A DNA stretch of 55,683 bases. Origin: a virus. Position 1 is the stretch's first letter, and each line of letters begins with the position of its first letter. The notes below the pieces were generated by a model. It had not been told where the DNA came from. It did no database searches and saw only the letters and a list, made by a program, of their open reading frames with translations. Shown here in pieces: positions 11,714 to 38,259 of the stretch. A program made the translations under genes and the position numbers. The stretch spans positions 1 to 55,683 of IMG/VR virus record IMGVR_UViG_3300023174_000203, one strand, 5' to 3'.

Positions 11714-12948
11714 CTATCTCTGCCAACCTTTAATTATATCAGGTGAAAAGTTGGCACGACTGAATTCTAAACGATCTACGATCTTAACTGCACCACCTGT
11801 TAGATGATCAATAGCAACAAAACCTTCGACTCCAGTAGTCTTGAATCCTGATGCAGTTTTTAAGAACGTCTTAATATGTCCTGCTGAGTTCATCTTATTG
11901 ATAATCATATTTTTTGCATCGATGATCAGATTTGCTAGATCGAATATTTGAGCAATGTCGGTCTTATCATGGTCAATAAAGAACTTTAATACTTTCTTTC
12001 TAGCTGCTTCTTGTGTTGCTTTTCCAGCCTCTGTCTTCTTCTTATCCATCTCTTTTTGATAGCGATCATGGATAAAATTATAGAGATCATTTACATGCTT
12101 ATTTGTGTTAGTGATCTTCTCTGAATTCCTGATCTTAGAGTTATTAAACATCTTTACCATGTTTAACAGATCGTTATCCTGATGGATTGCGTTAATTGTA
12201 CCTGATGTAGTTGCATTAAACAACTTACCGATCTTTGATAAGATTGCAGTTAATTCGGCAGTCTCTGTTGCAGTAAATGTTGCAGTGCCAGAATAATCTT
12301 TATAGTTAGCATCATCCATCCATACAGACTTCACATGCTTTAAGTTTGCAATAATACTTTTACCAAATGATGCTTTCATTGTCTCGAGAGTATCACCTTC
12401 ATACGTAGTATGCCATACGACACCCACATTTGCAGCATTAATCATTTTAGCAAGTGCACTATTAGCTGGAACGGCATAGACGATCGTATTAGGATGAAAA
12501 GTAATATAGTCTTCTTCACCTATAGTAGCAGTCTTAACATCACCTTTAGTGAACATCATATCGCCTTGATATACTCCGCTCTTGATTCCAAGTTTAGAGA
12601 ATTCTTTTAACGCGACTTTAAACTTTGTATTCAGATCTCCACTTAGATTGGCATCGATGTCTTTATCGGTCTTATAGACTTCAGGATTCTTATTGAAGAT
12701 TCCTTTTTTTGCAACGAAGAACTTACCATCTGCAGGATCGACACCAGCAAATATAGCAGGAGCACCATCCCATTTTACAGTAGCAGCAACTTTAGTCTTT
12801 GTTTGACCAGCAAGCATGTCACGAAGATCACGTAGGAAGTTAATCGCTTTACGAGTTCCATCAACACCCTCATTGAAGATGAGATCTTCTAAAGATGCTC
12901 CATATGAACGTTCTTTTGTTCAACAATATGATCTTTAAACTTTAGCAT
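11714..12948 (-). pseudogene. ligase-fold (KxDG nucleotidyltransferase-like) protein with out-of-frame start
   Basis: The long frame (ATG at 12815-12817, 367 codons) carries covalent nucleotidyltransferase-like motifs: KWDG at residues 15-18 (motif I), YQGDMMF near 83-89 (like motif III), EGFVAID near 330 (motif IV) and a K-x3-R pair just after (motif V). The natural beginning is probably further upstream. A strong AGGAGGG ribosome site precedes ATG 12946-12948, which encodes MLKFKDHIVEQKNVHMEHL and then meets TAG (12889-12891). The other frame continues with EDLIFNEGVDGTR and leads into the main frame. It may be a real frameshift, a sequencing error in the CTTTAG run, or recoding. The N-terminus resembles a capsid-targeting leader (IVE followed by Q). 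Confidence 0.7.
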
Positions 12949-13589
12949 ACAGAGCCCTCCTTTCTTTCTTTTCTAGGTTTCATTTTCCCGCGTCCTTTTA
13001 CATATCCTTCTGGTTGAGTTCCTTCAGTAACATATATTGAAGTTTCACCATTATTATACCACTTTAGATTCTTTTCCTTAACTGCGCTTCTTCCATACAT
13101 TGGGTTATTATTTCCAGACACATCATGACCATGCATGTTTTTTACTCTATCTCTTCTTTGTTCTTCTGTTAAACTGTCCCAATGTTTCTTAACTTGTTTA
13201 GAAGTTGACTTCCCATACATTGGATTATTTTTTCCAGTCTTATCTACAGTTTTCATATATGAATTTCTAGATTTTCTTTCGTCCTCAGTTAAAAATGACC
13301 AATACTTTTTAACAGTTTCCGGGTTGCCTCCATAACCGCCTTCAGACAAATTATAAAATTCTTCTGAATTTACTGCATCATATAATTCTATCCATTTTCT
13401 TTCGGCTCTAGATACTTCTTCTATACTTAAACATTCTTCTAAAATAATCTTTTCAAAATTTTGTTTTCCATATTTTTTAATTGCTGCTAGTATTAATGGT
13501 CCTGATCCAAGATAAGAATCATCATTTCGTGTTGAATACCCAATATACTTTTTACCGTTTATTTTATTTGTCGTCAAATATACATGCAT
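12942..13589 (-). CDS. GIY-YIG homing endonuclease with NUMOD3 repeats
   Basis: 215 residues. The GIY-YIG domain is at the N-terminus (VYLTTNKINGKKYIG, residues 3-17; conserved Glu near 88-92). It is followed by two NUMOD3-type DNA-binding repeats with the core NNPMYG (about 118 and 158) and a basic end. Such free-standing genes copy themselves into cognate sites by double-strand-break repair. It ends inside the ribosome site and first codons of the ligase-fold gene, which is the gene with the broken frame. AGGAGG precedes its ATG and a late promoter lies at 13608-13615. Confidence 0.9.
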   Translation of the reverse strand: MHVYLTTNKINGKKYIGYSTRNDDSYLGSGPLILAAIKKYGKQNFEKIILEECLSIEEVSRAERKWIELYDAVNSEEFYNLSEGGYGGNPETVKKYWSFLTEDERKSRNSYMKTVDKTGKNNPMYGKSTSKQVKKHWDSLTEEQRRDRVKNMHGHDVSGNNNPMYGRSAVKEKNLKWYNNGETSIYVTEGTQPEGYVKGRGKMKPRKERKEGSVC

Positions 13590-25838: not shown

Positions 25839-26459
25839 TCAAAGTTTCTTATAAGAAGCTTTTCGTTGCCCTTTTTTCACTAATTGCCAATTATCATTTA
25901 GTAAATACTCTTCAACTTTATCATGATTATATTCTAATATGTCATCAAATACGAACATTGCTCCAGGAGACACTCTTGTTTTAAAGAAGTCAATCTCAGG
26001 ATATAGAATATGAGAAGCATGAGGACCATCAAAATGAACTAATGCATATTGATTGATAATCTGCTTATACTCATTATAGATGGGAACACCATCACCAAAA
26101 CGTTTAAAGAACTCTGTATCTTCCATTACAAAGAATAGAACATTAACAGGATGTTCTTGATACATGGCGTAGATATTCTTCAAACAATCATTGCGCATTT
26201 GGTTATGATAGTCTTGATGAATAATCTCACCTTCATCTCCACGAGGATAATCAATATTACCATATGGATCTACACAAATGTGTGTTCTATTTAGATCATC
26301 GTTACTAAAACAACCTTCGATAATCATCTTAGAGCCACCACCACGCCGAACTCCCAATTCACATGTCATTCCAGGAACACCTTTAATTGCACTAGCTGCT
26401 TCAAAAAGTGTTTCATACTCCAAGCTATCACCTGGAAGATCTACAATATTCAAATACAT
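25839..26459 (-). CDS. class I SAM methyltransferase (TylF/macrocin-type)
   Basis: 206 residues. CELGVRRGGGSKMI (about 33-46) is the SAM-binding glycine loop, CVDPYGN (about 62-68) the acidic motif II region, and LVHFDGPHAS plus FVFDDILEYN supply the metal/base residues typical of TylF-like sugar O-methyltransferases. It probably methylates a hydroxyl on a sugar or small molecule. It is the last gene of the long operon that contains the sugar locus, which fits tailoring of a glycosyl group. GGAG precedes the ATG. Confidence 0.78.
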   Translation of the reverse strand: MYLNIVDLPGDSLEYETLFEAASAIKGVPGMTCELGVRRGGGSKMIIEGCFSNDDLNRTHICVDPYGNIDYPRGDEGEIIHQDYHNQMRNDCLKNIYAMYQEHPVNVLFFVMEDTEFFKRFGDGVPIYNEYKQIINQYALVHFDGPHASHILYPEIDFFKTRVSPGAMFVFDDILEYNHDKVEEYLLNDNWQLVKKGQRKASYKKL

Positions 26460-29510: not shown

Positions 29511-30416
29511 TCATTTGGGTTCTGCAAACACATATAGATTACCACCTTGATATGTATGCCACGGGACACAATACATGGTGATATTTGTTTTCGTTAATTC
29601 AGGGAATGTGTTGATAAACCAATTTAGATTATCAATACTACCATTAAATTCACATTGAAATAAAATTAGCCAATCGCAAGCACCAACTTTCTTGATGATT
29701 CTTTCACGATACTCAATCTGAGTTTCACTAAATGAATGTGTTCCTATTAGAAGAACTTTCTTTCCAGTAAAATCAGGAAGTTGATCGATATCACTTGCTG
29801 TTTTAATATCAGCAAGATCTTCATTGTAGTACTTAACGATCTTAGTCATAGGATCAAAGTCTACATCCCAATACTCACCTTTGAATCCATGTAGATGAAT
29901 GAGTCTTGCTAACTCACCCATACCACCGCCAATTTCAATGATCACATCATAATCACTGATCTTTTTACCAGTTTCTTTTTCATACTTAACTATATTATGA
30001 AGTTTGATTGGCTGAAGATAGTTAGTAGTTACTGAATTATCTTTATCACCAACTTTAATAGAAAAGTTATAGGTAGTTCTTTCATTGAAACCATTCCTAT
30101 ATCCTCTATCAGTTTCTTCTAGCATCTTAATATATGTAAGTTTACTTTCATCTGAATTAGTTGAAAGCATTTCCCATGTATCTCTTAGATAAGCAGTTGA
30201 TAAACGATGCATTTCCTCTGATGCTTGTACAAAGATAGGAACACGATAGATGATTGCTTCATCTTTAAATCCATACAACCGTTTCTCATCAGCAAATACC
30301 TGCTCAAAAAGAGCAGGTACCTTTTCCCAATATTGAGGATCATCTTGAGCAGGATATTGTGCAAGAATTGGATCAATGATCTCCAAATCTTGATTTGTGT
30401 TATATACAAAATCCAT
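29511..30416 (-). CDS. putative sugar O-methyltransferase
   Basis: 301 residues. An N-terminal helical part is followed by a Rossmann domain with DVIIEIGGGMGELARL (about 165-180), WDVDFDPM and LIGTHSFSE, the arrangement of phage-encoded putative sugar O-methyltransferases using SAM. It sits directly after a glycosyltransferase gene and in the same operon as GalE and Glf, so a sugar acceptor is a reasonable inference. The DNA modification or a surface glycan could be the substrate. Confidence 0.72.
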   Translation of the reverse strand: MDFVYNTNQDLEIIDPILAQYPAQDDPQYWEKVPALFEQVFADEKRLYGFKDEAIIYRVPIFVQASEEMHRLSTAYLRDTWEMLSTNSDESKLTYIKMLEETDRGYRNGFNERTTYNFSIKVGDKDNSVTTNYLQPIKLHNIVKYEKETGKKISDYDVIIEIGGGMGELARLIHLHGFKGEYWDVDFDPMTKIVKYYNEDLADIKTASDIDQLPDFTGKKVLLIGTHSFSETQIEYRERIIKKVGACDWLILFQCEFNGSIDNLNWFINTFPELTKTNITMYCVPWHTYQGGNLYVFAEPK

Positions 30417-30417
30417 A

Positions 30418-31368
30418 TTATTTCTTCTTTATCTTTTCAATGTCTGCAGTTGCAGATGCACCAATAGAAGCAAGATCAGCAAGCGATCCACCAAATACAT
30501 AACTACCAACGTGCTGCAGTTTCATCCAAGGATTCAACCATACTTTTAGACCAGCGTTTTGTGCGTAGTAACAGAACATATAATCTTCTGATAGATAACG
30601 CTTAGAAGATGTTTTTTCTGCTTCAAGCATTGTCTGTGCACGCTTTACTAATGCTTCAGGTTTTTCACCATTAGCAAGATCTTCCATCAAACGATGCACA
30701 TCATCAAAAGTATAACCACGATCGATAACACAATCAAAGTAAGCATGAATTTCACGTGAACCATCAAATGCTTCTGTACGTACATGATCAGGTTTATACG
30801 AAAGAGAAGGATATGCTTTTTCTATAGTTTCAAACGTAGAACGACGGATCATCATGAATCCAGTTCCACCTTCACGCACTTCAACTGGTTGATTGATAGG
30901 GATTTCGTTCTGACCACTCTTAGGATTAAATACATAATCACCAACGTAGCGCTCTAAAACATTAGCATCATTATCAGCAACACCCTTATCTACTGCTTGC
31001 TTGATCTTTTCCCATGAGATACACTTCTTAGGATATGGTCCACACATAACATCATATTCAGTTTCATCTCCCATCAAAGCAAGCATCGCAACTACGTCTT
31101 GAGCAGAGAATCCAATATCACTATCAATGAACATCATGTGAGTTGCATTTGAACGCAAGAACTCATCAGCACAATAGTTACGTGCACGAGTAATCAACGA
31201 TTCATTGAATAAGAAATAGAATTGAAGTTGAATACCATAGTTAGTACATAGCGCAGAAAGATCTGCGATTGAACGAGTGAACATACCTGCACATTGTCCA
31301 CCATACATAGGTGCTGATACAAACAATTTACGTTTGCGCAGCTCATCAGTTGAGATTTTAATCTCCAT
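30418..31368 (-). CDS. GT-A-type glycosyltransferase
   Basis: 316 residues. LFVSAPMYGGQCAGMF (15-30) and THMMFIDSDIGF (76-87) give the nucleotide-sugar and DxD metal motifs of GT-A enzymes. A later conserved region (REGGTGFMMIRRSTFE) resembles other phage GT-A proteins. It transfers a sugar from an NDP donor. The acceptor is unknown, but the neighbours are a UDP-Galf pathway and a hydroxymethylcytosine gene. GGAG lies before the ATG. Confidence 0.8.
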   Translation of the reverse strand: MEIKISTDELRKRKLFVSAPMYGGQCAGMFTRSIADLSALCTNYGIQLQFYFLFNESLITRARNYCADEFLRSNATHMMFIDSDIGFSAQDVVAMLALMGDETEYDVMCGPYPKKCISWEKIKQAVDKGVADNDANVLERYVGDYVFNPKSGQNEIPINQPVEVREGGTGFMMIRRSTFETIEKAYPSLSYKPDHVRTEAFDGSREIHAYFDCVIDRGYTFDDVHRLMEDLANGEKPEALVKRAQTMLEAEKTSSKRYLSEDYMFCYYAQNAGLKVWLNPWMKLQHVGSYVFGGSLADLASIGASATADIEKIKKK

Positions 31369-31649
31369 TATTTACTCTCCTTTTTATTTTCACTTTGATC
31401 GTGAACATGTAATTGCAAAATTGCGTAATGAATTATCTTCATCAGGTCTTTACGCGCTTCACCTGATTTTTTTCCATACCTACCTGAATATTTTTGAATG
31501 CAGCCGATGTTGAATCCTGTGCCATGACCTGTTGCGATGATTAAATCCATTGGTTGAACTTCATCGCCGTAGTGTGCACCATAGCAGGCATTGACGTAGT
31601 CGGTTATTTCTTTTATATACTTGTCTTCATTAAACCGATACTTGCTCAT
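31368..31649 (-). CDS. DUF3310-like small protein
   Basis: 93 residues. The pattern GFNIGCIQKYSGRYGKKSGE followed by DLMKIIHY corresponds to the DUF3310 type (Y..G...KY..R...K.G...DL.K...Y) that occurs widely in phages and is sometimes called nucleotide kinase-like without proof. It lies between two sugar genes and overlaps the glf end by 20 bases. Confidence 0.75.
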   Translation of the reverse strand: MSKYRFNEDKYIKEITDYVNACYGAHYGDEVQPMDLIIATGHGTGFNIGCIQKYSGRYGKKSGEARKDLMKIIHYAILQLHVHDQSENKKESK

Positions 31650-32664
31650 GATCTATAACTTTCTTCAAATAATTATGTGCTACACTTAAAGCAGAAGAAA
31701 CTGCTTGGTGCATATCAATGTAAACATACATTCCACATCGCCCGATAAATGTCATCTTAGGATGTTTAATCGCGGCATATAGTTTATATATCTCCCTGTT
31801 CGTGCCCGATAGATCTTTTACAGGATAATATCTTTCCATATTATTTGTACGATAGTCACAAGGTTCTTCATACGTGAGAGTTGTCATTTCAGGATTATGC
31901 CCATGATTAGGAATATTCTTCCATTCTGTCATTCGAGTATAAGGGCCATGATGCGTAAAATTTACTGTTGTCGTAGGAAGAATTCTTGGAGCAGGAATAT
32001 CGACATGATGGAACTTGATTGAACGGTAAGGTAATTCTCCATGACAGTAGTCATGATAGACATCAATTGGCATCGAATTAAAAATGTGGTCATAATCTTT
32101 CTCCATTGATTTATCAAAAGATGTTCCTAATGATACAGTGATACCTTCCCAATCAAGCATATTAGAGATAAGAGCAGTATACCCATCTCTTGGTATCGCT
32201 TGATATTCATCATCAGGAAAATAGTATTCATTAAAGTCATTTCTAATTGGTACACGATTTATAATTGATGGATCTAATTCTTCAATATCCATTCCCCACA
32301 TCTTTTTAGTGTATGGGCGAATAAAGATATCAACGATATTATCTTCACCAACAATATCTTTTGTAGCACGATTAACTGGCAATGTAACATAATCACCATT
32401 GCTTAATAGAGCTTTTACTTTATGCTTATATGGAATCCACTCAGTGAATCGTCCTAGATAATCATAAACCTTTTTATTGTTTGTATGAAATAGATGAGGG
32501 CCATACGCATGCATTCTAATTTTATGGTCATTTACAAAATCATATGCATTACCTGCAATGTGATAACGCTTATCAATGATAGTTACATTATGACCAGCTT
32601 CAGCAAGTTCTCTAGCAATTACAGCACCAGAGAATCCTGCTCCAACTACTAAGATTTTAGACAT
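31630..32664 (-). CDS. glf: UDP-galactopyranose mutase
   Basis: Converts UDP-Galp to UDP-Galf with reduced FAD. 344 residues: dinucleotide-binding GAGFSGAVIA (8-17), YGPHLFHT (54-61), the TRMTEWK segment near 240 and the C-terminal IGRCGMYVYIDMHQAV near 310, all characteristic of Glf. The length is close to bacterial enzymes (about 370). It is the only known route to galactofuranose donors, so a galactofuranosyltransferase is expected nearby. Confidence 0.93.
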   Translation of the reverse strand: MSKILVVGAGFSGAVIARELAEAGHNVTIIDKRYHIAGNAYDFVNDHKIRMHAYGPHLFHTNNKKVYDYLGRFTEWIPYKHKVKALLSNGDYVTLPVNRATKDIVGEDNIVDIFIRPYTKKMWGMDIEELDPSIINRVPIRNDFNEYYFPDDEYQAIPRDGYTALISNMLDWEGITVSLGTSFDKSMEKDYDHIFNSMPIDVYHDYCHGELPYRSIKFHHVDIPAPRILPTTTVNFTHHGPYTRMTEWKNIPNHGHNPEMTTLTYEEPCDYRTNNMERYYPVKDLSGTNREIYKLYAAIKHPKMTFIGRCGMYVYIDMHQAVSSALSVAHNYLKKVIDHEQVSV

Positions 32665-33674
32665 AGATTAAGCTCCGCCTTTTGTGTTTCTTTATTGAGA
32701 GGGTGTATTCTATATAGCGCTTCTCTCTGTGCTGCTGCCAAATCTTCGAGTTCTTTATCACACATATCAACAAGATCTTTTGCTTTTATATCTGCAAGCG
32801 TTTCATCTTCATAGTAAATAAACATCTCATCTGGATCACCAATAAGAATAGATCCCGCATCTGCAACTTGAAGAGGTCTTGCTCTCCACCAACCAGATCC
32901 TGCATGAAAATATCCAGGCATTAAGATACCCCAATGTTCTGCATAGATATTTACCATCACGTCTTCAGTTACACGATCTTGACCATCTTTTCGTGAACCA
33001 TATTTCATCAAAGGCCAATCATTATCATTAATACCTTGTGCTTTAAGCCACTTCTTTGTTTTATCTTGAATTAATCCTGCAAAATTAAATATACGTTGTT
33101 TAGGTTCAACAACAAGATTATTTGGTTTACGATTGAGATGATAAGGATTTGGGTTATACGTAAATATTTTATCGCGTGGATAATCTAATAGAAGAGTAGG
33201 ATCACCACCACGAAATGCAGAGATTAATAGATTATTAGTTTTAGATTGAATAAGATCCAATGCTTCAACAAAATCTTTTTCCCATTCAGTTACATTTTCT
33301 GGGATATTGGTATGACTTTCAAGAACGTATTTTCGAAATAGTTTTTCGGGGTCTCTAAGCGCGAGCAATCCTGAGTAGATACTATCAGTTTGCCAGTCAT
33401 CAAATGCAAGAGTACAGTCTCTTCTTCTAGCAATCGTATAGAGCGCGTTATATACATAAGCAGCGAAACCTGAAGGATTGTGAATATACACAATAACTTT
33501 GTCGTATTTGTCAAGATTTTCTCCAATATCTACAACTCGCTGCTCTACTTCATGTCCCATATCACGGAGACAACGAATTAAACTATAATGTGATGGAACA
33601 ACTTTAAGCTGTTGACTTGCATAGAAGTCTTCAGTGCACTGCAGCTTATTCATTCCTGTGATTAGTATTTTCAT
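32649..33674 (-). CDS. GT-B-like glycosyltransferase (candidate DNA glycosyltransferase)
   Basis: 341 residues. The N-terminal half has KILITGMNKLQCT and VVPSHYSLIRCLRDMGHEVE. The C-terminal half has GWWRARPLQVADAGSILIGD, the donor-binding Glu/Asp-Gly region of a two-domain GT-B fold. Its start overlaps the galE stop (ATGA) and its end overlaps glf by 16 bases, so it is tightly coupled with both UDP-Galf enzymes. Action on 5-hydroxymethylcytosine is inferred from the adjacent gp42. Confidence 0.75.
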   Translation of the reverse strand: MKILITGMNKLQCTEDFYASQQLKVVPSHYSLIRCLRDMGHEVEQRVVDIGENLDKYDKVIVYIHNPSGFAAYVYNALYTIARRRDCTLAFDDWQTDSIYSGLLALRDPEKLFRKYVLESHTNIPENVTEWEKDFVEALDLIQSKTNNLLISAFRGGDPTLLLDYPRDKIFTYNPNPYHLNRKPNNLVVEPKQRIFNFAGLIQDKTKKWLKAQGINDNDWPLMKYGSRKDGQDRVTEDVMVNIYAEHWGILMPGYFHAGSGWWRARPLQVADAGSILIGDPDEMFIYYEDETLADIKAKDLVDMCDKELEDLAAAQREALYRIHPLNKETQKAELNLCLKS

Positions 33675-34546
33675 TTTAACTCCATCTCATATGCTGATCT
33701 ACACATATCAGCCAACGATCTTTCAACTGTTAGATACTCAGAAGTTCCATCGATTTCAAGAATATCAGGATCTCCTTCACGACGTGGACCAAATTCTTCA
33801 AGCCAACTTTTGCCTGTAACATCTTTCATTATATCAAGAACCTCTAAATTTGTAAACCCTTTATTTGAACCAAGGCATTCATATTCAGCATTCTTAGGAT
33901 TAGAAAAAGCAGCATTCACTATCGCTTTAGCAAGATCAACAACATGAATATAATCCCTAATACAAGTACCATCTCGTGTAGGATAGTCACCTCCATTTAT
34001 GATTACCTTTTCTCTTTTACCTGCAGCAGCTTCTGCAGCAACTCTAATTAAATGTGTTGAGGGACCAAACTGACGATGTTCACCATTAGAACCAGCAACA
34101 TTGAAGAATCTAAAGATTGTATAACCAGGTGCTAACTGTCGAATAACATCTTCAGCTGCTACTTTAGATTTTGCATATGGAGAAACAGGATCAAATGCTC
34201 CTGCTGTTGATGCGAATATAAAATGTTTACACTTTACATTCTTAAGAATATTAATTGTTCCATTTAAATTAGTATCGTAGTATTCATATGGCTTTTCCAT
34301 ACTCTCACCAACTCGTACTAATCCAGCAAGATGAATTACTACGTCATACATAAGACCATGTTGAATATCACGCACATCTTTTTGTATAAGCGTATGACAA
34401 TATGGATTAATATAATTTCTATATGCTGTGTCTATATCAAGAGCTGTAATATAAACTTCACGTGCATTTACTTGCTTATATAATTCTTTCAATACATGAG
34501 CACCAATATAACCCGTAGCTCCTGTTACTAATATGCTTGTAGCCAT
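33671..34546 (-). CDS. galE: UDP-glucose 4-epimerase-like enzyme (GalE, SDR family)
   Basis: 291 residues. NAD-binding GATGYIG (9-15), the catalytic S/Y-x3-K (Y124, K128 in SPYAKSK) and the GalE signature RDGTCIRDYIHVVDLA (191-206). It interconverts UDP-Glc and UDP-Gal, supplying UDP-Galp to Glf encoded downstream. It is shorter than E. coli GalE (338) but contains all motifs. AAGGA lies before the ATG. Confidence 0.9.
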   Translation of the reverse strand: MATSILVTGATGYIGAHVLKELYKQVNAREVYITALDIDTAYRNYINPYCHTLIQKDVRDIQHGLMYDVVIHLAGLVRVGESMEKPYEYYDTNLNGTINILKNVKCKHFIFASTAGAFDPVSPYAKSKVAAEDVIRQLAPGYTIFRFFNVAGSNGEHRQFGPSTHLIRVAAEAAAGKREKVIINGGDYPTRDGTCIRDYIHVVDLAKAIVNAAFSNPKNAEYECLGSNKGFTNLEVLDIMKDVTGKSWLEEFGPRREGDPDILEIDGTSEYLTVERSLADMCRSAYEMELK

Positions 34547-34890
34547 TCTTTACAATCCTTTAATATCTCATTTACTTTATCATGATCGTTCATCATTCTA
34601 TTTCTAGGTGATGGATGTGGCAAGGTGTAATGCTCGATGCCTAGTGTATTTAGCGTCTTCGAAACATGACCACCTAATGCAATCACACGATAATAGTCTA
34701 TAATTTGAACTAATAGACTATCATAATCTATTTCTTTAAAGTCCCATTCAGGATCATCAGAGAGATTTGTAAACGAGACGACGCCTGTGCCGAGATAATC
34801 AATCCACGAACACAGGCGATTCCAAGCTCCGTTCTTATGTACTTTGTTTGCTAATCGGGATGGGTTCAAACCCACTATTATAGTCTGCAC
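34528..34890 (-). CDS. mini uracil-DNA-glycosylase-superfamily protein (SMUG-like motifs)
   Basis: 120 residues with GTG start (34888-34890). GLNPSR (7-12) corresponds to UDG motif 1 (GxNPG-like), LGGHVSKTL (72-80) to the conserved middle strand and HPSPRNR (92-98) to motif 2. HPSPRN is the SMUG1 form of that motif. SMUG1 removes uracil and 5-hydroxymethyluracil, which would arise by deamination of hydroxymethylcytosine. The protein is half the usual length. It overlaps the dCMP deaminase gene by 56 bases. Confidence 0.68.
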   Translation of the reverse strand: MQTIIVGLNPSRLANKVHKNGAWNRLCSWIDYLGTGVVSFTNLSDDPEWDFKEIDYDSLLVQIIDYYRVIALGGHVSKTLNTLGIEHYTLPHPSPRNRMMNDHDKVNEILKDCKEWLQAY

Positions 34891-35323
34891 AATATTCAGA
34901 ATATTTTACGCCTGCTTCATCAAACATATCTCGTGTGTCTTCCCACGATTTTAGCCAACGAAGATCAACGTATTGGTCAGTAAAAATATGAACTTCTTTA
35001 ATGCCTACTTGAATAATACCTTTAGCACATTCACTGCATATAGGAAGTCCATACACGTATAATGCTGCACCATCAAGAGATACACCAGAGAATGTCGCGT
35101 TATAGATAACGTTCATCTCAGCATGCACTACATATTTGTATTTAGTAGGCCTATCATCTAATCTTTCAATTGAATCATCAATGCCTCGAGGAAAACCATT
35201 ATAACCTTGAGAAAGAATTTGGCCTTTGCTTCCTACTGCAACAGCACCAATTTTTCTAGATGGATCTTTACTCCAATCAGAAACTTCTTTTGCAAGATTT
35301 AAATATCTTTTATTCCATCTCAT
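34835..35323 (-). CDS. cd: dCMP deaminase
   Basis: Makes dUMP from dCMP. 162 residues: GYNGFPRG (40-47), zinc/catalytic HAE (67-69) and PICSEC (94-99), as in T4 Cd and bacterial ComEB. It feeds dUMP to ThyX, while gp42 takes dCMP to the hydroxymethyl form. The ATG overlaps the gp42 stop (ATGA). The C-terminal 18 codons overlap the glycosylase-like gene in another frame. Confidence 0.94.
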   Translation of the reverse strand: MRWNKRYLNLAKEVSDWSKDPSRKIGAVAVGSKGQILSQGYNGFPRGIDDSIERLDDRPTKYKYVVHAEMNVIYNATFSGVSLDGAALYVYGLPICSECAKGIIQVGIKEVHIFTDQYVDLRWLKSWEDTRDMFDEAGVKYSEYCADYNSGFEPIPISKQST

Positions 35324-35967
35324 TTTACTAATCCAAAATGTCTTTCATATACATGAAGACTTCCTACACTCCAGATAATATCTCCAAGTTCAACACCAAG
35401 TTCATCGCATAATGCAAGAGCAACATATTCTTGCCATGCATAATCATTCTTATAACCGAAGACAACATCATTACTTCGCATTTGAACAACTACTTGTAGC
35501 TTATTATCACGAATCATGTATTGAACAGCATTTGTGCAGATGAAGTCACTCATACCATCAATATTATAATCATTCCAAATCATTGGACGAGTATAGATCA
35601 TGCATGCACGGCGAGAGAATGGATTACGACGAAGTTCTTCTAGAACATTTTGATATTGATTCCAGTTCTCATCATGCCAAATAAGATAACCATAGTTAGA
35701 ATTAATCCAACCTTGAGTAGATGCAACTTGTTTCCATATATCAGGAGGACCACCGGGAATATCACCAACATTCAATGACATTGATTTATACCAATCAAGT
35801 TCACGTTGAATATACTCTTGATTAGGAGTACCAAAGATTGCAGGTTTATCAGCCAAGAAAGTTGCACCGATAATCTCGATCATGTTGACGCCAGTTTTAT
35901 CCTGGACAAATTTCTTCTGTTCAAGATTGCGTACAAATATATCTCGAATGTTATCAATACTCATCAT
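35320..35967 (-). CDS. 42: dCMP hydroxymethylase gp42
   Basis: Converts dCMP to 5-hydroxymethyl-dCMP. 215 residues of thymidylate-synthase fold that align strongly with remembered T4 gp42: DKTGVNMIEIIGATF, YIQRELDWYK, TNAVQYMIRD, MRSNDVVFG and SLHVYERHF. Catalytic Cys is C144 (DFICTN). The specificity position has Asp (D175 in KNDYAWQ), where dUMP-using synthases have Asn. This supports dCMP as substrate. It is about 30 residues shorter than T4 gp42 at the C-terminus, but the ATGA overlap with the next gene shows this is the natural end. Confidence 0.93.
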   Translation of the reverse strand: MMSIDNIRDIFVRNLEQKKFVQDKTGVNMIEIIGATFLADKPAIFGTPNQEYIQRELDWYKSMSLNVGDIPGGPPDIWKQVASTQGWINSNYGYLIWHDENWNQYQNVLEELRRNPFSRRACMIYTRPMIWNDYNIDGMSDFICTNAVQYMIRDNKLQVVVQMRSNDVVFGYKNDYAWQEYVALALCDELGVELGDIIWSVGSLHVYERHFGLVK

Positions 35968-36299
35968 GGTATCATCTTCCTATTCAAGAAGTCACGAGTA
36001 GTTGATTGACCTTCGATACCACCACGCATGTAAGCAACAAAGAACGATGCATAGTTAATTAGATCGACTGCTGAATCTTCCATTGATTCAAAGTTTGGAA
36101 CATAATTAGGATCATTTTCCATCGCTTCCATAACAGATTGAATGCGAAGAATTTTACCATTCATTACATCTAGAATTGATGCGCAACCACGTGGATAGTA
36201 GTCTGCTTGTTTGATACGACTATTAGGATTCTGATAATCGTTTGATTTGCGGGTTTGAATTTCAGCAGCTTGTTGTAGGACTTTTAAAGATTCTTTCAT
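35964..36299 (-). CDS. Nmad1/DUF1599-like nucleotide-modification-associated protein
   Basis: 111 residues. KSNDYQNPNSR (18-28), GKILRIQSV and the ESMEDSAVDLINYASFFV helix resemble DUF1599, a domain that has been linked to phage nucleotide modification. No catalytic role is known to me. It is the first gene behind the promoter at 36320 and is coupled to gp42 by ATGA. ATG 36297-36299 with GGAG five bases upstream is chosen over the GTG two codons earlier. Confidence 0.75.
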   Translation of the reverse strand: MKESLKVLQQAAEIQTRKSNDYQNPNSRIKQADYYPRGCASILDVMNGKILRIQSVMEAMENDPNYVPNFESMEDSAVDLINYASFFVAYMRGGIEGQSTTRDFLNRKMIP

Positions 36300-36319
36300 G
36301 TACACTCCATAAAAAATAA

Positions 36320-36349: not shown

Positions 36350-36867
36350 TATATATTTCTCACGTTATAATAATATCCATCCCCATAATTAGAAGGAGAT
36401 AACGCATTCATAACACGTTCAACCTTTTGAACTTCACATAATTTAAATTGAACAACATCACCTGCTCTCAATGGAGATTCAGGTGGTTTAGGATAATATT
36501 TGTAGAATGCAAAATGCGTTACATTTCCACTTCGTAGATTTTCCATGTAATAGATAGTCTTATCCTCTGGAACATTGAAGTATTTTGAAGTGATTATCTT
36601 ACAATCTACCTTTGTATCTTCAACAATAAAATCATGGTAGATATTTACTGGTTTTTCTACTAATTTTTTCTTTAGTAGTTGATATTCAATTGCAAGACAA
36701 TCAGCGTGCATTATGCGACGCCAATCTTCACGACCATTTGCACGAAACTTATTTTTCATCTTATCGCGAAAAGCGATAAATTCTTCAGTCACTTCAAATG
36801 TTTCAACTTCCTCATGAATATTAGAGAGGTAGTTGTACAGAGTTGAGGAGTCCGTGATTGTGTTCAT
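36349..36867 (-). CDS. conserved phage protein, possible nuclease-like fold
   Basis: 172 residues from ATG 36865-36867. An N-terminal helical half has REDWRRIMHADCLAIEYQLL. The second half reads HDFIVEDTKVDCK, which loosely fits a D-x(n)-(D/E)-x-K nuclease core, then a beta-rich region with LRAGDVVQFKL. The nuclease idea is weak. It overlaps the MazG gene end by 47 bases in another frame. Confidence 0.6.
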   Translation of the reverse strand: MNTITDSSTLYNYLSNIHEEVETFEVTEEFIAFRDKMKNKFRANGREDWRRIMHADCLAIEYQLLKKKLVEKPVNIYHDFIVEDTKVDCKIITSKYFNVPEDKTIYYMENLRSGNVTHFAFYKYYPKPPESPLRAGDVVQFKLCEVQKVERVMNALSPSNYGDGYYYNVRNI

Positions 36868-37228
36868 GTGAGGGTGCTTTCCATCCTTCAGGTTTAATAA
36901 GGTCAGGCAGACCAAGTGGATTAGGACGTGATTCTTTTATACCAATTTGTTTACTCATATTGGCTTTATGTACTTCGTCCCATGCCTTTTGTGCATCTAC
37001 ATTAAAAAGATCTAGAGTGCCAATTGCAACAACACAAAGATCGATCAATGCATCTACAACATCTTCTGCAGATTCTGCAGTTCTAAGTTCAGTCATTTCT
37101 TCTTCAAGAAATTTTACACGAAACTCTAGAAACTTTTTTAGTTTTTCAGAATCAAACTCTTGAATTTTTGGTTTTACACCATAGTGTTCATGCATATTGG
37201 CAATATCGCCAACCCAATCTGTTAACAT
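36821..37228 (-). CDS. MazG-like nucleotide pyrophosphohydrolase
   Basis: 135 residues from ATG 37226-37228, which has GGAG six bases upstream (a second ATG four codons earlier overlaps the preceding stop). EEEM (42-45) and EDVVDALIDL (55-64) supply the E-x2-E and E-x2-D metal sites of all-alpha NTP pyrophosphatases. T4 gp56, which removes dCTP in hydroxymethylcytosine phages, belongs to the same broad fold, so dCTP clearance is an attractive but untested role here. Confidence 0.82.
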   Translation of the reverse strand: MLTDWVGDIANMHEHYGVKPKIQEFDSEKLKKFLEFRVKFLEEEMTELRTAESAEDVVDALIDLCVVAIGTLDLFNVDAQKAWDEVHKANMSKQIGIKESRPNPLGLPDLIKPEGWKAPSHEHNHGLLNSVQLPL

Positions 37229-37239
37229 GCTGTTCTCCA

Positions 37240-37392
37240 TTACTTGTCTTTTACGCCACATTGCTCTTCCTTTTTCTCAATACATATTGCTTGAACGGGT
37301 TTTGGATATTCAACATAGTTATCAATCACTTTTCCTGCTCCCCACCACCCAAAGTATGTAAAGAATCCTGCAACTATCCATTCAACAATCAT
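37240..37392 (-). CDS. 50-residue membrane protein
   Basis: MIVEWIVAGFFTYFGWWGAGK start gives one hydrophobic segment, then a soluble tail with two Cys ending CGVKDK. The ATG overlaps the stop of the preceding small gene (ATGA) and its TAA overlaps the first ATG of the MazG frame. I choose this start over a longer frame because of that coupling. Confidence 0.68.
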   Translation of the reverse strand: MIVEWIVAGFFTYFGWWGAGKVIDNYVEYPKPVQAICIEKKEEQCGVKDK

Positions 37393-37722: not shown

Positions 37723-38259
37723 TTACACATAAGAAATTTTCTTTTCTGACAATAAGTCATTTTTCTTAGCCCGGATGAACTGTTGCTTCTTTTTTAATGC
37801 TTTATCAAGATGATAACGATGTACTTTAGTTGTAAAATTTATACCTTCCATATGATCTAGCTCATGGAGGAAAACTCTAGCAGTAAGACCATCAAATTTC
37901 TCAGTAACCGTCTCACCATTTGGCATTGTGTAACGCACTTTGATTATTCTAGGACGTTTTATCTTAAGATATACATATTGATATGTTAAACATCCTTCTT
38001 CTAGAGCAATTTCTGTTTCGTATGATGCATCAATTATCCTAGGATTAAAACATGCCATTACAGGGTTGTTTGCGATCACAAATACGCGATAAGGAAGTCC
38101 ACATTGGTTAGCAGAAAGACCAAGACCGTTGTTTTTTAACATAGTCTCTGTTAGATTTTTTGCTAACTCAATAGGATCTATTGGAGGATCATCAAAATCA
38201 AAATGTTCTAGTTTAGTAGAAAGTAAAGGGTGATCAGGTTTAACTAATTCATATATCAT
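37723..38259 (-). CDS. def: peptide deformylase
   Basis: Removes the formyl group from nascent N-termini. 178 residues with all three motifs: GLGLSANQ (45-52; motif 1 with Ser replacing Ala), EEGCL (87-91; zinc Cys) and HELDH (132-136; HExxH zinc/catalytic). It is longer than the trimmed deformylases of marine cyanophages and includes a C-terminal helix with Lys-rich end. Common in aquatic phages. Confidence 0.94.
   Translation of the reverse strand: MIYELVKPDHPLLSTKLEHFDFDDPPIDPIELAKNLTETMLKNNGLGLSANQCGLPYRVFVIANNPVMACFNPRIIDASYETEIALEEGCLTYQYVYLKIKRPRIIKVRYTMPNGETVTEKFDGLTARVFLHELDHMEGINFTTKVHRYHLDKALKKKQQFIRAKKNDLLSEKKISYV

Follow-up and report, generated by a model that had tools for sequence, protein, structure and literature searches.

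In the window analyzed here, the 55,683-base IMG/VR virus record IMGVR_UViG_3300023174_000203 at its full length, a minus-strand operon at 29511-36299 probably directs the synthesis of DNA containing galactofuranosyl-5-hydroxymethylcytosine. An initial annotation of this DNA had proposed that hydroxymethylcytosine (hmC) made by gp42 receives galactofuranose supplied by GalE and Glf through the glycosyltransferase (GT) encoded at 32649-33674. Our analysis favors the same interpretation, considering that this GT resembles the T4 DNA beta-glucosyltransferase (BGT), is coupled to Glf, tracks gp42 across genomes, and occurs in genomes without a T4-type GT. The window bears the signature of a T4-like phage, including polymerase, clamp, and clamp-loader open reading frames (ORFs), a helicase, RecA/UvsX- and UvsY-like proteins, and a late sigma factor. 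All ORFs named in the annotation were recovered on the minus strand at their coordinates, closely packed and several of them overlapping; five of them, including those of the proposed pathway, are as follows.

35320..35967, minus strand: T4-type dCMP hydroxymethylase (gp42), 60.5% identity to T4 gp42
34835..35323, minus strand: dCMP deaminase, PF00383 1.5e-18, phrog_174 1e-40
33671..34546, minus strand: UDP-glucose 4-epimerase (GalE) homologue, PF01370 1.5e-32, TIGR01179 2e-59
32649..33674, minus strand: candidate DNA galactofuranosyltransferase, 341 amino acids, GT-B fold (AlphaFold2 fold, hhalign to BGT)
31630..32664, minus strand: UDP-galactopyranose mutase (Glf/UGM), PF03275 3e-52

The GT gene overlaps both sugar genes, as first described, sharing ATGA with GalE at 33671-33674 and positions 32649-32664 with Glf. 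Compared with their nearest relatives, the GT and Glf genes are under purifying selection (dN/dS 0.05 to 0.17), and because the differences are mostly silent, both are maintained genes. This selection, together with the recurrence of the arrangement in dozens of contigs, argues that the operon is not a product of chance.

Sequence searches of Pfam, NCBIfam, and the PDB with the GT returned no match, its sole profile match was phrog_14998, and nearly all records annotate it as "hypothetical protein." An AlphaFold2 model built from 34 homologues (pLDDT 89, pTM 0.88) displayed the predicted GT-B fold, and in a Foldseek search of 350,542 PDB chains, T4 BGT occupied ranks 1 and 2 (1qkj and 1nzd; E value of 1.4e-6), with 9iqz at rank 3; the TM of 0.56 to 0.62 to BGT is moderate, and GT-B folds resemble one another at that level. 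The comparison with known hmC glycosyltransferases recommended by the initial annotation was extended to profiles, where hhalign paired 286 columns of the GT with a profile of six BGT members (score of 56 to 57, E value of 4e-7). None of 100 column-shuffled BGT alignments scored above 23, reversal of the alignment gave 16.5, and control alignments scored 19 (GT-A), 20 (RB69-type GT), and 24 (uracil-DNA glycosylase [UDG]). The conserved residues of the GT are D92/D93, R264, R266, and E283; among these, D92 of the conserved DD pair was matched with BGT Asp100 and the invariant R266 with the UDP-binding Arg269 of BGT, while BGT E22 had no clear counterpart. Asp100 is the catalytic base of BGT and is mutated to Ala in entry 1nzd. 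Since PF09198 (T4-Gluco-transf) gave no match in the window record, the GT is named BGT-like rather than BGT. Considering fold and profile together, it is a remote homologue of T4 BGT, predicted to transfer a sugar to hmC. Direct homology to RB69ORF003c, a proposed DNA arabinosyltransferase whose orthologue is 9iqz (PMC6024577), was rejected, as the hhalign probability was about 1% and only the GT-B fold is held in common.

The hydroxymethylation step appears to follow T4. The window gp42 matched phrog_160 (4e-57) and PF00303 (3e-21), and 16 of 17 active-site and cofactor residues were identical to those of T4, the exception being R177, replaced by K. The identical residues include C144, D175, E56, D141, Y207, and R209, corresponding to C148, D179, E60, D145, Y218, and R220 in the T4 enzyme, for which roles have been described for the nucleophile Cys148, Glu60, the dCH-specific Asp145, and the cytosine-specific Asp179 (PMC6400193). 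The diagnostic D175 named in the annotation thus aligns with T4 D179, the pyrimidine-specificity position that is Asn in thymidylate synthase; those proteins of the gp42 family that were recovered from genomes with the GT have Asp there, and the Aes012 td control has Asn. The short C terminus of the window protein is not alarming, because T4 gp42 likewise lacks the thymidylate synthase tail (PMC6400193). Moreover, the window protein is 60.5% identical to T4 gp42 versus about 28% identical to the Mosigvirus proteins, and it carries the T4 motif RSND..FGYKND, not that of RB69. The RB69-type branch makes 5-hydroxy-dCMP, and arabinose there sits on 5-hydroxycytosine (PMC13390438). Arabinosyl-hmC, cited in the annotation as a precedent, thus calls for revision, since this later work places the arabinose on another base, made by a different gp42 branch. 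Given the active-site match and the placement, by identity, on the T4 rather than the RB69 branch, hmC would be the expected base in the DNA of the window phage.

Both sugar-donor proteins were also matched to the families named in the annotation. The best PDB matches of Glf were all UGMs, down to 2.5e-74, and alignment to 3hdq and 3gf4 preserved the conserved active-site Arg in PIRND, TRMTEWK, and GRCG, Trp in KMWGM, and Tyr in RYYPV. The protein is described as a divergent, phage-clade UGM homologue with a GLF domain, an FAD-binding N terminus, intact residues, and predicted mutase activity. For GalE, the best PDB matches were all UDP-glucose 4-epimerases (top match, 7k3p; 6.6e-42), and the expected GxxGxxG, Ser, and YxxxK motifs are present as GATGYIG, STAG, and YAKSK. 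In combination, GalE and Glf would convert host UDP-glucose to UDP-galactopyranose and then to UDP-galactofuranose (UDP-Galf).

Coupling of these genes was traced across 2.9 million viral contigs, among which 79 GT relatives were detected; neighborhoods were counted in the 74 IMG/VR loci with room to see Glf and, for gp42 and other genes, in 58 loci. Glf lay directly downstream of the GT in 55 of the 74, mostly within 13 bases, while gp42 (53 loci), dCMP deaminase (42), a GalE-like gene (21), and a UDG-like gene (17) occurred near the GT in the 58. Among annotated phages, the GT was present in 38 records, and Glf accompanied it in all 19 Aeromonas and both Stenotrophomonas records as well as in Erwinia phage FBB1, phage C48C1, and Actinomycetia phage DSL-LC01. 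The two genes are neighbors in Aeromonas, Erwinia, actinobacterial, Kyanoviridae, and jumbo phages. GT, Glf, and gp42 occur together, without T4 alpha- or beta-glucosyltransferase (AGT or BGT), in cultured Aeromonas and Erwinia phages, and neither T4 enzyme was detected in any of 10 GT-bearing genomes, with T4 itself detected as the control. A gp42-family gene was found in 27/30 records bearing the GT versus 2/13 that have Glf but not this GT (Fisher test, 4e-6) and, for contigs of ≥40 kb, in 18/21 versus 2/9 (P of 0.0017), although these tests treat related contigs as independent, whereas homologous contigs are not phylogenetically independent. Among the matches listed from 84,980 bacterial and archaeal genomes, there were at least four GT relatives, all in phage-like contexts. 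A 186-kb contig of a Hyphomicrobiales metagenome-assembled genome (NVXB01000001.1; L092/L093) holds two equally scoring GT-Glf loci separated by about 150 kb; it probably represents a phage genome that has a duplicated or redundant terminus and was binned into a bacterium.

The GT-Glf pair is also kept in the complete 156-kb genome of phage C48C1, which has no gp42. In this phage, the gene of a Tet_JBP oxygenase (PF12851, 3e-17) overlaps the GT gene, and Glf follows (OQ984149.1, L001 5586-9033). C48C1 seems to have swapped its supplier of the hydroxymethyl group while retaining the sugar genes.

Based on these observations, the following pathway is proposed. gp42, with its residues in place, would hydroxymethylate dCMP, and subsequent phosphorylation would give hmdCTP for polymerization into phage DNA. 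GalE, consistent with its family and residues, would convert host UDP-glucose to UDP-galactopyranose, from which Glf, on similar grounds, would form UDP-galactofuranose. The GT would then move galactofuranose onto the hydroxymethyl group of hmC in DNA, a role suggested by its fold and homology, with the donor suggested by gene coupling. As glucose does in T4, the resulting galactofuranosyl-hmC would protect the phage genome against restriction, CRISPR, and further nucleases directed at hmC.

That the GT glycosylates hydroxymethylated cytosine in DNA appears very likely to us and, granted this, the sugar is likely to be galactofuranose. Several observations nevertheless weigh against the proposed pathway. 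Apart from the moderate TM values and the shared ancestry of the contigs noted above, Glf scored 284.6 bits against the NCBIfam equivalog TIGR00031, below the cutoff of 303.75, and GalE scored 200.9 bits against TIGR01179, for which the equivalog cutoff is 262.3. A gp1-type hmdCMP kinase was not found in the window, a partial genome; the T4 gp1-type kinase is present in Aes012 and FBB1. Since no PF00145 C5-methyltransferase was found in C48C1, and by comparison with JBP enzymes, the target in that phage may be thymine-derived hydroxymethyluracil, sugar-modified as in base J. Furthermore, the GT lacked an adjacent Glf in 19 of the 74 loci; no Glf was seen in 18 GT loci, the 82.7-kb contig G002 is without any Glf, and in one 174-kb GT-bearing genome the sole Glf is a distant one at another site. 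At such loci, the GT may draw on other donors. No Glf was found with the distant GTs (22 to 27% identity) of the tested Morganella, Gordonia, and Manatee Spring phages. Conversely, 34 of 65 Glf-seeded loci, some of them ending at a contig edge, had no such GT.

One alternative is that the GT glycosylates hmC with glucose, galactopyranose, or another sugar, while GalE and Glf serve elsewhere or adjust donor pools. This explanation, which we consider unlikely, gains from the fact that BGT, which the GT resembles, uses UDP-glucose, and from related GTs of about 62% identity in loci without Glf. In addition, a distant member of the GT family adjoins an arabinose-5-phosphate isomerase gene. That member, in Morganella phage Rgz1 (OK499989.1, L004 6372-8068), overlaps the isomerase gene within an RB69-like arabinosylation cluster and may be an unrecognized DNA arabinosyltransferase. 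Because some GT loci and distant GTs are without Glf, one of the latter lying by this isomerase, the GT family probably holds several donor specificities. The placement of Glf immediately 3' of the GT in most loci, and the persistence of this adjacency across such different phage groups, argue against this alternative. The same Rgz1 cluster, where the distant relative (23%) is accompanied by an RB69-type gp42 homologue, lends some weight to the idea that the modified base is 5-hydroxycytosine rather than hmC; considering the identities and the motif of the window gp42 given above, this is very improbable.

A different explanation is that the sugar genes build a virion-protein or host-surface glycan, gp42 being an incidental neighbor and hmC being bare or absent. 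Support comes from other IMG/VR phage contigs, where Glf is surrounded by several methyltransferases and GT8/GT25-like proteins, from the GT-A protein and the two methyltransferases nearby in the window, and from two Rhizobiaceae phages in which Glf comes after an amidase gene. Of seven Glf loci without the GT that were inspected, five were situated in islands where methyltransferases accompany GT8/GT25-like enzymes, with families judged by eye. However, these five glycan-context contigs are without this GT, and the window has no GT8/GT25-type island. Moreover, the GT resembles BGT, accompanies gp42 from genome to genome, has few relatives among the cellular matches listed, and occurs in genomes without a T4-type hmC GT. 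A glycan role for the window genes thus seems decidedly improbable, and galactofuranosylation of hmC remains the preferred reading. The large Glf-centered islands (contigs L130, L136, L145, L149, and L150) likely serve a surface or virion glycan, a second use of galactofuranose by phages. Glf alone was rejected as a marker of DNA modification, as it occurs in such islands and in Rhizobiaceae-type phages without an adjacent GT.

The remaining genes of the operon, and one gene beside it, are listed below. In the order of transcription, the operon runs DUF1599-like, gp42, dCMP deaminase, UDG-like, GalE, GT, Glf, DUF3310, GT-A-like, and S-adenosylmethionine (SAM) methyltransferase, after which comes the clamp gene. 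The initial annotation did not mention the DUF1599-like, UDG-like, and DUF3310 genes.

35964..36305, minus strand: DUF1599-like small protein, GTG start, phrog_18404/1485; beside gp42 or the GT in most homologous loci
34528..34890, minus strand: small SMUG1-like UDG-superfamily protein, GTG start, overlapping the deaminase (motifs, AlphaFold2 fold)
31368..31649, minus strand: DUF3310 protein, PF11753 1.9e-7, phrog_480 4e-26
30418..31368, minus strand: GT-A-like protein, pathway membership doubtful, phrog_1574 4e-63
29511..30416, minus strand: SAM methyltransferase-like protein, pathway membership doubtful, TIGR04371 23.7 bits, below cutoff
36821..37261, minus strand: MazG/PRA-PH-type nucleotide pyrophosphohydrolase, PF01503 1.4e-9, phrog_671 1e-22

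The ORF at 35964-36305 gave no match in a Pfam search, and the name DUF1599 is our presumption. The protein at 36821-37261 is possibly a dCTP remover. The UDG-like protein scored 17.5 bits against PF03167, below the cutoff; it carries GLNPS (motif 1, GxNP) and HPSPRN (motif 2), and across 19 proteins the motif 2 His and Pro do not vary. Its AlphaFold2 model (pLDDT 83) had UDG/SMUG1 proteins as its top four PDB folds (E value of about 0.01), among them human SMUG1, Methanosarcina acetivorans UDG, and Geobacter SMUG1, and tblastn against the annotated phage records yielded none at an E value of 0.01. This protein probably clears hydroxymethyluracil (deaminated hmC) or uracil from phage DNA. Brig1 and Brig3, bacterial anti-phage defenses of the UDG superfamily, excise glucosyl-hmC and hmC (PMC11078745, PMC13160076). 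It is conceivable, though very improbable, that galactofuranose on hmC is paired with a SMUG/Brig-like glycosylase acting on hydroxymethylated pyrimidines that lack protection, which would let the phage damage the DNA of hmC-bearing competitors while sparing its own.

Of the two further enzymes that the initial annotation had joined to the pathway, the GT-A call stands on phrog_1574/34859, whereas the "sugar-type" label of the methyltransferase corresponds to a TIGR04371 match of 23.7 bits against a cutoff of 44. The GT-A protein was rejected as a general pathway member, since phrog_1574 was counted in 62 phage records, most of which lack this GT and some of which are from Synechococcus, Caulobacter, and Sinorhizobium phages, and since it is linked with the sliding-clamp gene. 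The methyltransferase at 29511-30416 was likewise rejected, being confined to the two nearest relatives (L009 and L010), with no match among 50,697 phage records. Accordingly, the second or methylated sugar suggested at the outset was not supported as a general feature. The second methyltransferase noted at 25839 is indeed present, as a Methyltransf_24 protein outside the operon. Cytosine-C5-methyltransferase-like proteins were seen near the GT in gp42-bearing phages (L073 3045-4262, L079 5938-7170, G010, G011, and DSL-LC01; tested with PF00145, except for L079, which was assigned by motif only). Elsewhere in the window are a peptide deformylase gene at 37723-38259 (phrog_2890) and a GIY-YIG/NUMOD3 homing endonuclease at 12942-13589.

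Compared with the T4 hmC pathway, the operon shares a gp42 orthologue with a matching active site, a b-gt-like gene position (b-gt adjoins gene 42 in T4 too), and a GT related to BGT by fold and profile, with D100 and R269 matched. The differences from T4 are that its GT has diverged beyond the reach of the BGT Pfam family and that the phage brings genes for GalE and Glf, neither of which is used by T4; because of these two genes, the donor is probably UDP-Galf instead of the UDP-Glc of T4. Arabinosylation of 5-hydroxycytosine in RB69/NP phages is similar in pairing a phage-made unusual sugar donor with a GT-B DNA transferase, 9iqz being the third-best fold, and differs in its gp42 branch, its sugar genes, and the lack of detectable sequence homology between the GT and RB69ORF003c. 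Pyle et al. in 2024 reportedly described Tet/5mYOX-dependent glycosylation of phage hmC with hexose, HexNAc, and heptose products and no identified galactofuranose. Those systems also bear diverse sugars on hmC through phage GTs, and C48C1 joins a Tet_JBP oxygenase to GT-Glf, whereas the hmC of the window phage would be made at the nucleotide level by gp42. In the 5cmdC system, predicted by MetaGPA from gene co-occurrence and then validated, gp42 is coupled to a different decorating enzyme, a carbamoyltransferase, and the added group is a carbamoyl, not a sugar (PMC8670742). Shewanella phage Thanatos likewise places a non-glucose sugar from a phage-made donor on cytosine, although this is a deoxypentose and the transferase and donor genes are different (PMC12838424).

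Cytosine hypermodification by phages is already known; new here would be the sugar on phage cytosine and the BGT-like subfamily. Our literature search found no report joining UGM, phage, and hmC; Pyle 2024 and Mahler 2025 lay outside its scope, and prior description is not fully excludable. To our knowledge, galactofuranose is not known on any DNA. If the proposed pathway is correct, this sugar, familiar from cell-surface glycans, would also be a DNA decoration, and the modification would occur in phages of many viromes as well as in cultured Aeromonas and Erwinia phages, whose possession of the same genes makes the idea testable at once. The GT would add a new donor specificity to the known DNA transferases and could serve to label hmC, and the combination of gp42 or Tet, a BGT-like GT, and Glf would be a gene signature that predicts the modification from sequence. 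Type IV restriction and glycosylase defenses would, moreover, find a specific target in galactofuranosyl-hmC.

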